This document shows positions 3,467 through 10,028 of a stretch of 16,678 bases of DNA, piece by piece. The stretch covers positions 1 through 16,678 of the forward strand of contig JAGTWP010000029.1 of assembly GCA_018260755.1 (NCBI GenBank), given 5' to 3'. The translations under genes were made by a program, and so were the position numbers. Every line of letters starts with the position of its first letter. Positions within the stretch are counted from its first letter, which is position 1. A model generated the notes under the pieces. It did no database searches. It saw only the letters and a program-made list of their open reading frames with translations, and was not told where the DNA came from. This stretch comes from Candidatus Altarchaeum sp. (GTDB lineage: Archaea; Altiarchaeota; Altiarchaeia; Altiarchaeales; Altiarchaeaceae).

Positions 3467-3739
3467 TTATTTCTTAAATTTTTCCTTTAAAATTTTTAAT
3501 AGTTCTTCTTTTTTTGGAACCTCTCCGTTATAGAATAATTCATCATCAATCAATATAGACGGTGTTGCCGCAACCTGTTTTTGCAAAGCTTCAATCATAT
3601 TGTCGCCTTCATCAATATTTTTAATTTCATAGTCGTAACCTTCTCTTAAGTCTAATTCCCTCACAACTTCTCCCAGTATTTTCTTTGCAGCAGGACAATG
3701 TGTGCATGTTGTTGCCGTATATAAAATAACTTTTGACAT
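3467..3739 (-). CDS. Glutaredoxin/thioredoxin-like redoxin (CTHC), probable NrdD partner
   Basis: This 90-residue single-domain thioredoxin-fold protein starts with a beta strand (VILYTAT), has the active-site motif CTHC at residues 12-15 at the head of helix 1, and a cis-proline segment (AATPSILID) followed by a hydrophobic strand, a turn (YNGEV) and a final Lys-rich helix. This size and order match small archaeal glutaredoxin/NrdH-like redoxins that carry electrons by dithiol exchange in the cytoplasm. It begins 11 bp after the nrdD stop codon on the same strand, so cotranscription is very likely. Some class III reductases are known to take electrons from a thioredoxin/NrdH-type protein instead of formate; the linkage suggests that here, but this is inference. 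No nrdG activase gene lies in the window. Confidence 0.85.
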   Translation of the reverse strand: MSKVILYTATTCTHCPAAKKILGEVVRELDLREGYDYEIKNIDEGDNMIEALQKQVAATPSILIDDELFYNGEVPKKEELLKILKEKFKK

Positions 3740-3750
3740 TTTTCTTAAAT

Positions 3751-6700
3751 TTAAAAGTCCAACGATGTATCATATTTTAATTTCTCTTTCAGTTTTTCAA
3801 ATCTTGCCTCATAATCGCCTTCTTTCATTGTAAAGGAAATTTCCTTCGCAGTAATTTTATCATTATTTTCAAATCCATATCTTCTCCTGTCCTGAAGCTC
3901 TTTAAGCTTTCCTTTATTCCAGCCCTTGATGTTCTGATAATAGCCGGTAATCCTGCTCCACCATTCAACATTTTCAGAATTACAATTCGGACATTTATTG
4001 TGCAATCCCCCTGTTACAAAATTACAGTTACTGCAGACCGTTAAATCCTTTGTGAAAGCCATATACTGGATTGCTGTTTTTGTGGCGATCTTTTTTGTTA
4101 AGGACAAAATTGCTTCGGGATCAGGATTTTGTTCACCAAGCCAGATGTGCGACATTGCTCCTCCGTCAGTTAGCGGGTGGAATGAACCTTCAACACTCAG
4201 TCGTTTCCACAAAGGAATATTTGCCGATGGTCTTATATGGAATGAATTTGTATAATATGCATCTTTTCCTTCACCATTAGTAATAAATTTATCAGGAAAT
4301 CTTTTAATGTCTATTTGTGCCAGGCGATAAGCAGAACTTTCCGCAGGCGTTCTTGCCAGAGAGAAATTTAGACCTGTTTCTTTTCTAATATCAGCGACCA
4401 TTTTCTTCATTTTATTCATAACCTTTAATCCAAATTTCCACCCTGTATCTTCGTGTAATTCGTAGCCAGTCATAAATTTAACACATTCATTCATCCCAAC
4501 TAATCCCATAACAAAACTTTGCCGGTCAACTTCTAAATATTTATCTCCTTTCTCATTAACAATCTGAGACATAAAAGGAAGCATTCCCAAATTCTGGTTT
4601 TTCTTTATAATTTCTCGTTTTAGAATATGCACACTTTTTGCTTTTTCCATTCTGTCTTTCAAAATTTCAATAAATTTATTTTCATCCCGATTACTTTCGT
4701 AAGCAATCTGGGGAAGGTTTATTGTTACAACCTGTAATGCCCCACCTCTAACTGTCCCGTCCCTTACATCATCTTCGGTATTTGCATCGGATAATGGCAT
4801 AAGAAAAGCACAACAATTTGAAGAAAAAATTCCGTGCACATTTGTAAAATTATGATAATCCTCAACATCTGCAAAATCATACACATAACCTCCTTTTATA
4901 ACAAATTCTATAGTTCTAACTTCATAAATTGCTAAATTAGAAAACGCATAGTCATATCCGAATCTATCTAAGGTGTGATAAATAGAAACACTATCTTTTC
5001 CTGACTTTAAAGTAACATTACTTCCCATGAGATTAGTATACCAAGATGCACCGACTTCTTTATATACCTCTTTCGCGTTTTTATCTTCATATTCAAAGAC
5101 ATTTAATTTTAATTCTTCAATTACCTTTTTCATATTTCTAATTCCTATTAACCGAGCGCCAGGTTTAATATCTTTTGCTCTTTTTTCAATAATTTTTCCT
5201 TTTTCTTCCACAATTAATTTGTGGTTAGAGGTTACTGTAATATCTTTGTTGAAAGCCAAATGAAATCTAATAATTTCTTCTTTTTTTGGATGTCTCATTA
5301 CCTTTCCGATTTTTTTCTTTTCAATCTTCAACGTTTTCGGATTAAATGATAACACATAATCCTGAGATTCGGCAATTTCAACTTCGCCCTCAAATCCCCT
5401 TACAAGATTAATATGTCCTTTTTCTTTCATTTCTTCATCCATTATTTTATTTATATACTCTCCAATCCTTACCAAATGTAATTCTTCGCCTTTGATAATC
5501 CAGACCTTTTCATCATAAGGCAGTGACTGATAGCACGCATACAACGGCATATAGGGCTGGTTAATAATATAATAAGGAGTTCCGAATTTTGCTGCTAATT
5601 CCGAAACCTTTAAAAGCACATCTTCATTTTTATCCATTTTTTTCGGATAAAGCTGAACCTCAAATTTTGGAAAATTAAATGCTTTTCCAGTATAATCTCC
5701 CTTGAGATAAACATCTACGATCGCATTAAATAATGTTTTTGTTTCATCTTCAAAGTCAGCATAAGTTGTATTTTCTTTAACTATTCCTCCGGGCAAAACA
5801 GCAGGAATATCTTTAAACTGCTCGGGAACTTCCATATCACAATCAATACTACTGAAAACAGTTTGGCCGCCTCTCGCCACATACATCATTGACATTTCGT
5901 AGATAAACATCTGTGCTAACTGCTTAACCTTTTCATAAGGTAACCCTGTAATGTATGGTGCAAGAAATGTGTTAAAATAACTAAATCCCTGTCCTCCTGC
6001 ACAATTGACCTGTGCCGATGCTAATACCTTTGCAGCGTGTAAAAATGCAACATCTGGCTTTTTTGCAGGTCCCGCAACAGCAGTATGATTTCCAACGCCA
6101 TCTACCTTTAATCCGTGTTTAAGGAAAAACCTTATATCATGAGAAAAACAAAACGGGCGCGTAGAATTATGCACATAAACAGGAGATGCGCCGACTAAAT
6201 ATCTTCTCGCATCGGGACAGGATAAATCATATACATATTCGGGTTTATCAGATATATTCTTTTCTTTTACACAAATAAAATTAGCATCTTTAAAAGAAAT
6301 ATATCTATTCTCGGATTCTTTAATAACAAACATATTTTGTTGTTTGTGAGTTAAACATCTCTTTCCAAGACGTCTCAAAAGCCATTTTATTTGACTCGCG
6401 AGATCTTCTGAAGAAGTATAATATTCATTTGTACCGTTTCCGTCACATTTTTTAAAGAAATCAAGTAAGGACTTAATGTTCTCTTTATTGAACATTATTG
6501 TAAAATCGGGGAGCTTTTTATTTTTAGCATATTCGCCAATTGAAAAGACATATTTAAATAAAAGATAGGCTATCTTTGAGCCAAAAGTAACTGTTGTAAC
6601 TCCATTCTCTCTTAAATAATTTTTTGGGCGTTTTCCAAAGATGCTTTCTGCTGCAAGCTCAAATTTTTTAATAATATTTTTATCATTGTTTGAAAAAGAT

Positions 6701-8421
6701 ACACCATAAACAGGATTTCTATCTTTTAAGTGTGTCTTGTTTAACCATCCTTCCGTAACAACACCTGCAATAACAGTTACAAACGCATCATCAATTTTTA
6801 AAAATACTGGAACAGAATAATTGATTTTTGGGTTGTAGTTATAAGTGATGCTCAACTCTGTTTCTTGTCCTCTTATTTTATCAATATCTTCAAGGGGCTT
6901 AATAGTTCCATCTGCATATTTTACTCCTATGTTTTTTATAAGAAATTCATCTTCTGCAAGGATTTTGCTTTTGTTTTTTATTATAGATTCTAAAATATTG
7001 ATTTCCTTTATTTCATCCTTCTCATCAACCGCTATTTCTCTCGGAACCTCTACAAGCATACCCTTTTCTAAATTATCAGCAGTGATTTCTTTTGTTTCCA
7101 TGTAATTACACAAATTCATTAAAATTTCATACCATATCTTTGAATTAATAACTATGTTTTTTGTTTTGCTCTCTTTTGAAATATACTTCTTTGTGAATGG
7201 AATTCCCAAATTTTTTAAGGCATCTTCAACAATATCGCCAAATTCTGTTCTAAAGATTATTCTTTTTTCTTTGTCATCATTTCTTCCGCATAAAATTTGA
7301 TTAAGAATTATATCAAAAAATTTAGAAGATTTTATTTTTTCCGTAACTTTAAATTTACTTCTCTCTTGGTTGTAAAAGCCATCCTTCAAGTGCAAATTGC
7401 TTAATTTATCAATAAAAGGGTATATCAAAAATTCTTTATTTTTTAGGCCTAAACTAAAGAACCTGTGCTGATTTGTGACTTTTATGTCATCTCCGTTATC
7501 CAAAGAAATTTTACAAAGGTTCTCATCATTTTTTCTTTTAAATAATTCCGAGGCGTAAGCGGGCTTTGCAATGCCATTTGCACCGGAAAATATCTTAAAA
7601 TGTGCATTATTATTGTTATTATTTGCATCATTGTCATTAATGTTGTTGTCTATCCATTCTCCAATAGTTGTAAATTTAGGTGTGGGATTTACCGTCCAAA
7701 TTTTTTCGTTTTTATCCAAACAAAAATAATCCATATCGTGTATATGTATTTCCCCCCTCATGTGCGCATCCGCCAATTCCAAAGGCAAAACCTTAATCAA
7801 AGAATATTCCTTGCTAATCTGGTCAGCCATTAATTTATGAATCGTCTCGGGATTAAATTGTAAATTTGCATTTTCTTTGCTTCCGTGCTCAATAAGAAAG
7901 GTAACATCATAAACAGGCATTCCGAGTCGTGTGTACAATTTTCTTTCATTTTCAAAGCCGGCTTTTAACAATTCAACACAAACCATTTCTCTTATTAAAG
8001 GAGCCGTAACAAATTCCAGGTTTAATTTCCCCATTTGTTTTTTAACGGTTTTTGATATTCTTTCGGCAATTTTTTCATCAATATCAGTTTCTTCAATAAG
8101 CGACCTCGTGATTTTATTCGCATCAAAATCCTCAAATGTAGATAAAGAAGTTCTTACCTTTGTTGTATTTCCTTGGAGATATTTATCGGCAAGTTTATTA
8201 TCTATGCCCTTTAATTTTTCATAGACCTTTGCTCTGATTTCCTTGCTTGAAATTTCTATTTCGGTATCTGATACATTATTTTTTATTTCCTCGAAAATTT
8301 CAGTTGCTGTACTTACTGCTAACGATGCCTGTAGCCCTACATTTAAAAGCGAATTGATAATTTTGTCATTATTAAATTTCTCCGTTTTGTCGCTTTTCCT
8401 TACAAACACTTGCCGGGTCAT
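3751..8421 (-). CDS. nrdD: Anaerobic ribonucleoside-triphosphate reductase with two inteins
   Basis: The 1556-residue precursor is an oxygen-sensitive class III ribonucleotide reductase, making dNTPs through a glycyl radical. Extein 1 (residues 1-233) holds an ATP-cone (about 3-95), a second cone-like region (about 90-185) and the conserved GEIHIHDMDYF. Intein 1 is 234-752; extein 2 (753-962) begins STRPFCFSHD and includes NCAGGQGFSYFNTFLAP. Intein 2 is 963-1202; extein 3 (1203-1556) begins CCAFLMP and ends with a zinc site (Cys1463, 1466, 1477, 1480) and the glycyl-radical loop SRITGYYQ, with Gly1493 the likely radical site (734 in the spliced protein). Splicing would leave 797 residues, a normal length for an archaeal NrdD with ATP-cone. 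The reading frame is intact throughout. The redoxin gene follows by 11 bp. ATG 8421 is the only sensible start, giving the ATP-cone directly. Confidence 0.95.
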   Translation of the reverse strand: MTRQVFVRKSDKTEKFNNDKIINSLLNVGLQASLAVSTATEIFEEIKNNVSDTEIEISSKEIRAKVYEKLKGIDNKLADKYLQGNTTKVRTSLSTFEDFDANKITRSLIEETDIDEKIAERISKTVKKQMGKLNLEFVTAPLIREMVCVELLKAGFENERKLYTRLGMPVYDVTFLIEHGSKENANLQFNPETIHKLMADQISKEYSLIKVLPLELADAHMRGEIHIHDMDYFCLDKNEKIWTVNPTPKFTTIGEWIDNNINDNDANNNNNNAHFKIFSGANGIAKPAYASELFKRKNDENLCKISLDNGDDIKVTNQHRFFSLGLKNKEFLIYPFIDKLSNLHLKDGFYNQERSKFKVTEKIKSSKFFDIILNQILCGRNDDKEKRIIFRTEFGDIVEDALKNLGIPFTKKYISKESKTKNIVINSKIWYEILMNLCNYMETKEITADNLEKGMLVEVPREIAVDEKDEIKEINILESIIKNKSKILAEDEFLIKNIGVKYADGTIKPLEDIDKIRGQETELSITYNYNPKINYSVPVFLKIDDAFVTVIAGVVTEGWLNKTHLKDRNPVYGVSFSNNDKNIIKKFELAAESIFGKRPKNYLRENGVTTVTFGSKIAYLLFKYVFSIGEYAKNKKLPDFTIMFNKENIKSLLDFFKKCDGNGTNEYYTSSEDLASQIKWLLRRLGKRCLTHKQQNMFVIKESENRYISFKDANFICVKEKNISDKPEYVYDLSCPDARRYLVGASPVYVHNSTRPFCFSHDIRFFLKHGLKVDGVGNHTAVAGPAKKPDVAFLHAAKVLASAQVNCAGGQGFSYFNTFLAPYITGLPYEKVKQLAQMFIYEMSMMYVARGGQTVFSSIDCDMEVPEQFKDIPAVLPGGIVKENTTYADFEDETKTLFNAIVDVYLKGDYTGKAFNFPKFEVQLYPKKMDKNEDVLLKVSELAAKFGTPYYIINQPYMPLYACYQSLPYDEKVWIIKGEELHLVRIGEYINKIMDEEMKEKGHINLVRGFEGEVEIAESQDYVLSFNPKTLKIEKKKIGKVMRHPKKEEIIRFHLAFNKDITVTSNHKLIVEEKGKIIEKRAKDIKPGARLIGIRNMKKVIEELKLNVFEYEDKNAKEVYKEVGASWYTNLMGSNVTLKSGKDSVSIYHTLDRFGYDYAFSNLAIYEVRTIEFVIKGGYVYDFADVEDYHNFTNVHGIFSSNCCAFLMPLSDANTEDDVRDGTVRGGALQVVTINLPQIAYESNRDENKFIEILKDRMEKAKSVHILKREIIKKNQNLGMLPFMSQIVNEKGDKYLEVDRQSFVMGLVGMNECVKFMTGYELHEDTGWKFGLKVMNKMKKMVADIRKETGLNFSLARTPAESSAYRLAQIDIKRFPDKFITNGEGKDAYYTNSFHIRPSANIPLWKRLSVEGSFHPLTDGGAMSHIWLGEQNPDPEAILSLTKKIATKTAIQYMAFTKDLTVCSNCNFVTGGLHNKCPNCNSENVEWWSRITGYYQNIKGWNKGKLKELQDRRRYGFENNDKITAKEISFTMKEGDYEARFEKLKEKLKYDTSLDF
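4816..5535 (-). other. Intein 2 of NrdD, 240 aa, no recognisable homing endonuclease
   Basis: This in-frame protein-splicing element covers residues 963-1202 of the precursor. It starts with Cys963 (CYQSLPYDEKVW), carries block B as VTSNHKL (T-x-x-H, about 1065), and block F/G as VYDFADVEDYHNFTNVHG followed by FSSN. Asn1202 is the last residue and Cys1203 is the +1 nucleophile. The C-terminal SSN before Cys resembles the IASN ending of DnaE-type inteins rather than the commoner HN. No LAGLIDADG or HNH motif is visible; about 90 residues beyond a minimal splicing domain are unexplained. Removing it joins LYA to CCAFLMP, so it sits at a double cysteine that probably belongs to the catalytic finger loop. 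Confidence 0.9.
6166..7722 (-). other. Intein 1 of NrdD, 519 aa, with LAGLIDADG endonuclease
   Basis: This element covers residues 234-752. It starts with Cys234 (CLDKNEKIWTVNPTPKF), has block B as VTNQHRF (about 314-320) and ends with block F/G VYDLSCPDARRYLVGASPV then YVHN, followed by Ser753 as the +1 nucleophile. The middle contains two degenerate LAGLIDADG helices, VIAGVVTEGWL (about 549-559, acidic Glu) and SLLDFFKKCDGNG (about 650-662, acidic Asp), spaced as in a monomeric DOD homing endonuclease that would invade intein-less nrdD alleles. Both acidic residues are kept, so it may be active. An Asn-rich low-complexity stretch lies near residues 258-272, probably a surface loop. Splicing restores DMDYF-STRPFCFS. 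Confidence 0.93.
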
Positions 8422-9639: not shown

Positions 9640-10028
9640 ATACCAAAAAACCACTCTAAAACAATCAGAACTGCCCTCTTAAAACTACCCTCTTAAAACC
9701 ACTCCTAAAAACTACCCCAAAACAACTTGAAACTACCCTTTGAAACTACCCTCTTAAAACCACTCCTAAAAACTACCCCAAAACAACTTGAAACTACCCT
9801 CTTAAAACCACCCTCTTAAAAACACTCCTAAAAACTACTCTAAAACAACTTTCAAAACTACTCTCTTAAAACCACTCCCCAAAAACTACTCTAAAACAAC
9901 TTTCAAAACTACTCTCTTAAAACCACTCCCCAAAAACTACTCTAAAACAACTTTCAAAACTACTCTCTTAAAACCACTCCCTGAAACTACCACCAAACAA
10001 CTTGAAACTACCCTTTGAAACTACCCTA
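9640..10028 (+). repeat. A/C-rich minisatellite, about 51-bp unit, about 6 copies
   Basis: The phrase CTCTTAAAAC recurs at 9676, 9690, 9751, 9799, 9813, 9863, 9914 and 9965. The last three copies are spaced 51 bp apart and nearly identical; earlier copies are diverged, with spacings of 14, 61, 48 and 50. Sub-phrases are CAACTT, AAACTACC and AAAACTACT. The + strand is almost without G and about four fifths A+C, an extreme amino/keto strand bias. All frames are interrupted in the older copies and no start codon is present, so it is non-coding. It fills the gap between the debranching enzyme's 3' end and the NFACT gene's 5' end, both on the - strand. Confidence 0.88.

Follow-up and report, generated by a model that had tools for sequence, protein, structure and literature searches.

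The window, a stretch of 16,678 nucleotides, lies on a contig of a 1.32-Mb draft genome (G000, below called the window genome). A single uninterrupted frame on its minus strand (3751..8421; 1556 aa plus stop) is the nrdD precursor gene, coding for a class III ribonucleotide reductase with two inteins. The NRDD family of Pfam matches this frame in three pieces (E 1.9e-149, 499 bits), the ATP-cone is also matched, and NCBIfam TIGR02487 (NrdD) gives 487 bits; NRDD and TIGR02487 both score above cut-off over the whole catalytic domain. Two Intein_splicing stretches are found in the same frame (E 3.4e-30). These matches bear out the first-pass annotation in its two basic claims, that one open frame with two sets of intein blocks occupies 3751-8421 and that the gene is nrdD.

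The host protein is divided into three exteins, all encoded on the minus strand. Extein 1 (residues 1-233; 7723..8421) comprises the ATP-cone region and the start of the catalytic barrel, and ends with HIHDMDYF. Extein 2 (residues 753-965; 5527..6165) runs from STRPFC to LYACYQ and contains Cys758, which corresponds to Cys79 of T4 and Cys125 of T. maritima. Extein 3 (residues 1203-1556; 3754..4815) carries the CC pair Cys1203/Cys1204, a zinc ribbon CSNC...CPNC and the motif RITGYY with the glycyl-radical residue Gly1493 (window 3943-3945). The active-site cysteines (Cys758 in PFC, and Cys1203/Cys1204 after splicing at the corrected boundary given below), the glycyl-radical motif and the Cys4 zinc site are all present; the frame reads as an archaeal class III NrdD that is catalytically complete and belongs to a Candidatus Altarchaeum-type genome.

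No class I or class II ribonucleotide reductase was detected in the window genome and three congeneric drafts (65-87% complete), and NrdD is the only reductase seen in the window genome as far as the completeness of the draft allows. An NrdG2-type activase is present on another contig (G000:C11). Directly downstream of nrdD, a glutaredoxin/thioredoxin-like protein with a CTHC motif is encoded on the minus strand (3467..3739). A glutaredoxin-like gene adjoins nrdD in strain HURL_140 as well and is more distant in Nanoarchaeota KR11; the CTHC protein is a candidate NrdH-type reductant for NrdD. Two further inteins were noticed in the window genome, one in an RtcB-like gene (L065; G000:C66, ~10.8-12.2 kb) and one in an MCM-like gene (L064; G000:C73, ~9.7-11.3 kb), both gene names being assigned by inspection. 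Elsewhere in the window, tandem repeat arrays with periods of 51 and 61 and short GTAGTTTT-like units lie at 9669-9990, between an NFACT-like gene and a glycogen-debranching-like gene.

Intein 1 (residues 234-752, 519 aa; 6166..7722, minus strand) occupies what we call site A, with the junctions HDMDYF/CLDKNEK...VYVHN/STRPFCFS (slashes mark the insertion points here and below). It has the features of a class 1 intein, namely Cys1, a TxxH motif (T83/H86), a VHN end with N519 as its last residue, and a +1 Ser. When it is excised, DYF-STRPF aligns gap-free with intein-free NrdDs, and the earlier placement of this joint, DMDYF to STRPFCFS at residues 233/753, therefore stands. Besides Cys1, the intein contains seven further cysteines. 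Both acids of its LAGLIDADG motifs, E324 (window 6751-6753, minus strand) and D427 (window 6442-6444, minus strand), are retained, as they are in the site-A copies of CG2_30 and G204, which also share the insertion point and Cys1 and are 85% and 47% identical to the window copy, respectively.

The best solved-structure match for both window inteins is the intein-encoded endonuclease PI-PkoII (2cw7), which is not an NrdD intein and has low identity to either. Its match with intein 1 spans the endonuclease domain and the C-terminus (E 1.2e-11), and the motifs VVTEG (E324) and KCDG (D427) align with it acid for acid (TEG/CDG on SEG/GDG). The possibility that the second motif (CDGNG) has lost its acid was considered and ruled out, since the PI-PkoII alignment shows the Asp to be kept. 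The Pfam LAGLIDADG score of intein 1 is 15 bits, below the cut-off of 22.5 bits. Judged from its motifs and its divergence, the endonuclease is probably functional and still able to home. In the stretch that joins splicing blocks A and B, the CG2_30 copy (L034) has a run of 44 asparagines with mixed AAT/AAC codons; the window copy has 6 there (residues 34-39 of the intein).

Intein 2 (residues 966-1202; 4816..5526, minus strand) is a mini-intein of 237 aa at site D. The features of class 1 are again all found: Ser1, T99-x-x-H102, an SSN end with N237, and a +1 Cys, together with D217 and H225. It contains no cysteine, and no LAGLIDADG domain. PI-PkoII matches it with E 1.9e-10. The intein had been taken to start at Cys963, three residues too early, and the residues C-Y-Q (963-965; 5527..5535, minus strand) had been counted as part of it; they are conserved extein residues, with Cys963 at position -3. 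At site D, the intein-free NrdDs of Altiarchaea and DPANN read LYACYQCC(S/A)(F/Y)LMP, strain A3 (intein-free, with 86-87% identity to the window extein) reads INQPYMPLYACYQCCSFLMPLTD, and CYQCC is present in every other intein-free NrdD of the Altarchaeum-type group. All five site-D inteins of this type start with SxPxxEK after CYQ, and those of HURL_140, G016, KR11 and G204 lie at exactly CYQ/CC, start with S(L/I/M)P..EK and end with GIFSSN. Because intein-free relatives read CYQCC and the same-site inteins start with Ser after CYQ, intein 2 is assigned to Ser966-Asn1202. Only excision at this boundary gives a CYQ-CCAF joint that is gap-free against intein-free NrdDs. The joint proposed before, LYA to CCAFLMP at residues 962/1203, opens a gap by deleting the conserved C-Y-Q, the outcome named in advance as refuting it, and the spliced length becomes 800 aa rather than 797. 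Cloning to the earlier boundary would remove three conserved active-site residues.

S1, T99, H102, D217, H225 and N237 are invariant across the five site-D inteins. Their penultimate residue is Ser instead of the usual His (SSN versus xHN) in all five; inteins without the penultimate His have been discussed (PMC4031507). The copy of HURL_140, also a mini-intein, shares the CYQ/CC position, Ser1 and the SSN end with the window copy and is 74% identical to it. The copies of G016, KR11 and G204 share the same point, Ser1 and SSN at 38-41% identity; they differ in being full-size (418-425 aa versus 237) with a LAGLIDADG domain, which the window and HURL_140 copies have lost. A HINT fold is putative for both window inteins, which have profile matches and matches to PDB sequences. 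AlphaFold models were poor (mean pLDDT 33 and 35, from 2 and 3 aligned sequences), and the fold assignments rest on sequence matches only.

How are the two insertion sites positioned relative to the catalytic cysteines? When the sequence is aligned with reductases of solved structure, the CC pair matches residues 289-290 of T4 NrdD and 329-330 of T. maritima NrdD. For the T. maritima enzyme, 328-SCCR has been equated with 288-MGCR of T4, and the C329A and C330A substitutions each abolish activity (PMC4493059). Intein 2 is inserted between the Gln equivalent to T4 Met288 and the CC pair, such that its +1 nucleophile Cys1203 corresponds to T. maritima Cys329 and the +2 residue Cys1204 to the radical cysteine Cys290 of T4 and Cys330 of T. 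maritima. The match of Cys1204 with Cys290 is taken from a multiple alignment with intermediate families; pairwise phmmer with T4 alone, which puts Cys1203 on Cys290, was set aside in favour of it. Intein 1 is inserted six residues before Cys758. The earlier suggestion that both inteins lie near catalytic cysteines is supported by these positions. Inteins are known to prefer conserved functional sites (PMC2814812). Ranked within the protein, local conservation reaches the 96th percentile around site D and the 59th, only average, around site A; the description of both sites as conserved core positions is accordingly right for the second and not clearly so for the first. Since intein 2 parts the loop from the essential CC pair, the precursor, as had been supposed, is very likely inactive.

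The frame, boundaries, motifs, presence or absence of inteins and synonymous contrasts are read from the sequence; splicing of both inteins, inactivity of the precursor and cutting by the endonuclease are inferred. We propose, with a probability of roughly 0.88, that the locus encodes a complete NrdD with two independent self-removing class 1 inteins, both mobile elements, which is made as an inactive precursor and yields an 800-aa product. Translation would give the 1556-aa precursor. Intein 1, judged from its motifs, would leave by an N-S acyl shift at Cys1, attack by the +1 Ser and Asn cyclisation, and intein 2 by an N-O shift at Ser1, attack by the +1 Cys and Asn cyclisation. Both excisions would restore CYQCC and PFC in the 800-aa enzyme, whose predicted joints are LYACYQCCAFLMP and HDMDYFSTRPFC; the loop would gain its essential cysteine pair once intein 2 has left, and up to that point the enzyme is presumed inactive. 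In this proposal, intein 1 would have homed in after the hosts diverged, and intein 2 would have been present for longer, passed down together with the gene.

The histories of the two inteins can be compared among four congeneric genomes, drafts of 65-87% completeness, which show four patterns of site occupancy: A and D in the window genome, A and E in CG2_30, F, B and D in HURL_140, and none in A3. CG2_30 and HURL_140 thus each hold one of the two window inteins plus inteins at other sites, and A3, with its closely similar NrdD, has neither. As A3 lacks both and the other two have one each, the genus can do without either intein. Between the window genome and CG2_30, dS is 0.35 for intein 1 and 0.96 for the extein; codons that differ for the same amino acid number 64 of 431 in intein 1 and 222 of 666 in the extein (Fisher p 3.5e-12), and at four-fold sites the contrast gives p 2.9e-4. 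Between the window genome and HURL_140, the corresponding counts are 46 of 169 for intein 2 and 181 of 705 for the extein (p 0.70). AT-rich composition was rejected as a cause of the low dS of intein 1, as intein 2, equally AT-rich (30% GC), shows no deficit. Because its synonymous divergence is far below that of the extein, intein 1 was transferred between lineages after the host genes diverged, apparently as a recent arrival by homing; intein 2, diverging in step with the extein, is old and inherited with the gene. The extein has a dN/dS ratio of ~0.08 and the inteins have ~0.22 each, with the endonuclease region of intein 1 evolving fastest (0.30). Such ratios indicate that both inteins are functionally constrained, less strictly than the enzyme.

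Next to site A, the invaded genes read TCT ACG (Ser-Thr) and the uninvaded congeners GCN CTC (Ala-Leu), which by their sequence are unable to splice at +1. Upstream of site A, pS between the window genome and CG2_30 is 0.14 over 40 codons, and in the 20 codons adjoining the site it is equally low between the window genome and A3; a co-conversion tract beside the site is suggestive only. A search of viral contigs, at the sensitivity applied, turned up no relatives of intein 1 or intein 2.

In a rival account, at least one of the inteins has been kept because it switches the sole reductase post-translationally, for example through oxidation that blocks splicing, either at Cys1 of intein 1 or by a disulfide from Cys963 to the +1/+2 cysteines of intein 2. 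There is precedent in the DnaB mini-intein of M. smegmatis, which is inhibited by a disulfide with its own catalytic cysteine (PMC6195587), and disulfide switches have been reviewed (PMC4031507). The extein cysteines 963, 1203 and 1204 do flank the junctions of intein 2, and this endonuclease-free intein is under purifying selection (dN/dS 0.22), so that something maintains it. However, intein 2 begins with Ser1 and is free of cysteine, which excludes redox sensing through a "Cys1" of this intein and tells against the control of splicing through Cys1 that had been suggested earlier. Moreover, neither intein is conserved in the genus, intein 1 was transferred recently, and the need to splice is by itself enough to explain the purifying selection: an essential active site must be restored, for which reason splicing competence would be kept in both inteins and no regulatory role is needed. 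No evidence favours such a role, and we consider the switch account unlikely. Its more specific form, in which the splicing of intein 2 activates the sole reductase through Cys963/1203/1204 or another signal and the endonuclease-free intein is kept for that purpose, strikes us as quite improbable; the +1 nucleophile of this intein is an active-site cysteine adjacent to the one that bears the radical. Mobile elements account better than a conserved switch for the occupancy pattern and for the fact that intein 1 was transferred recently. Very doubtful is the view that an intein has decayed and that NrdD has no function or is produced in separate parts: intein 2 does lack the penultimate His and an endonuclease, and the endonuclease region of intein 1 evolves fastest, but the frame is open with all splicing residues present, dN/dS is well below 1 (0.08 in the extein), and no other ribonucleotide reductase was detected in the genome. 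Hardly credible, finally, is an intein 2 that starts at Cys963 and leaves the mature loop LYACCAFLMP, since, even if Cys963 could act as Cys1 with the C-terminal junction unchanged, all intein-free Altarchaeum-type NrdDs have CYQCC, inteins in four other genomes sit at the same point after CYQ with a Ser start, and without C-Y-Q the residue that aligns with Met288 of T4 would be missing.

The arrangement proposed here, two mobile self-removing inteins in one reductase, has several relatives. In M. smegmatis, DnaBi1 and DnaBi2 likewise occupy one essential protein, one a mini-intein without endonuclease and the other full-size (PMC6195587); the difference is that the mini-intein there senses oxidation via its own cysteines, of which intein 2 has none. 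Haloarchaeal MCM-a and MCM-d show the same mosaic site occupancy, with uninvaded alleles that carry a splicing-unfit +1 residue, and the Ser/Pro dichotomy of MCM-d is similar to Ser-Thr versus Ala-Leu at site A (PMC10643990). The gene is a different one, and homing is experimental in that system whereas it is deduced for intein 1.

NrdD inteins as such are already known and the gene itself is ordinary; the added value lies in the comparison across genomes. A two-intein NrdD is known from Methanocaldococcus jannaschii (MJ0832, RNR-1/RNR-2). One genome sampled, G234, which is probably that species, has a 1750-aa NrdD frame with full-size Ser1 inteins at ARGGQ/T (site B) and TPAES/T (site H). There too, a single frame for an archaeal class III reductase holds a pair of class 1 inteins; the window inteins lie at DYF/S and CYQ/C instead. 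Our literature search found no account of inteins in Altiarchaeum, and no open-access account of the M. jannaschii RNR inteins.

Among the 248 NrdD-bearing archaeal genomes sampled, at least 23 have inteins in NrdD, at no fewer than 11 distinct insertion points, and the sites of the window recur in other archaea. Other intein types occupy CYQ/CC or the equivalent AM/CC in G275, G325 and G256, the last guessed to be Thermococcus-like in genus, and G134 has an intein one residue further, at SMC/CRL. This intein (L110; G134:C4) lies between both cysteines and has no Cys or Ser at position 1, a Cys in block F and a Thr before HN, features suggestive of class 3. G204, a 0.7-Mb draft archaeon whose NrdD is related to that of Nanoarchaeota KR11, apparently has five inteins in nrdD, at sites A, G, B, D and E; the gene is joined by inference as L100-L101-L099-L102 over contigs C67, C68, C42 and C58, with breaks inside three inteins.

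The glycyl-radical tail was also met apart from the main frame. In L072 (G300), L110 (G134) and L080 (G278), the NrdD frame ends at the zinc site and the tail lies in a downstream frame with its own ATG; similar split matches occur in G295, G344, G259 and G381, and either a frameshift or a class III reductase made in two pieces could account for them. The NrdD on G325:C1 (L105, 371-377 kb) has inteins ahead of both the Cys79 equivalent and CC, and its tail is a 131-aa frame ~90 kb away (L112, 282 kb). Several Altiarchaeia moreover encode a stand-alone protein of ~87 aa whose N-terminus is rich in cysteine and which ends in a glycyl-radical tail of the NrdD type (SRITGYYQNIAGWNEGK), found as L042 (G003:C36 1362-1622), as L043 (G001:C87 4563-4820) and in G014, G016, G023, G025 and G026. 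In A3 and HURL_140 it coexists with a complete NrdD, and it looks like a GrcA/YfiD-like spare part for NrdD.

Several unrelated inteins thus lie at, or one residue from, the essential CC motif of archaeal NrdD. In the gene described here, the relative ages of the two inteins can be told, one apparently recent and with endonuclease motifs, the other old and endonuclease-free, and nrdD of these archaea therefore offers a natural system for following the homing cycle in one gene.
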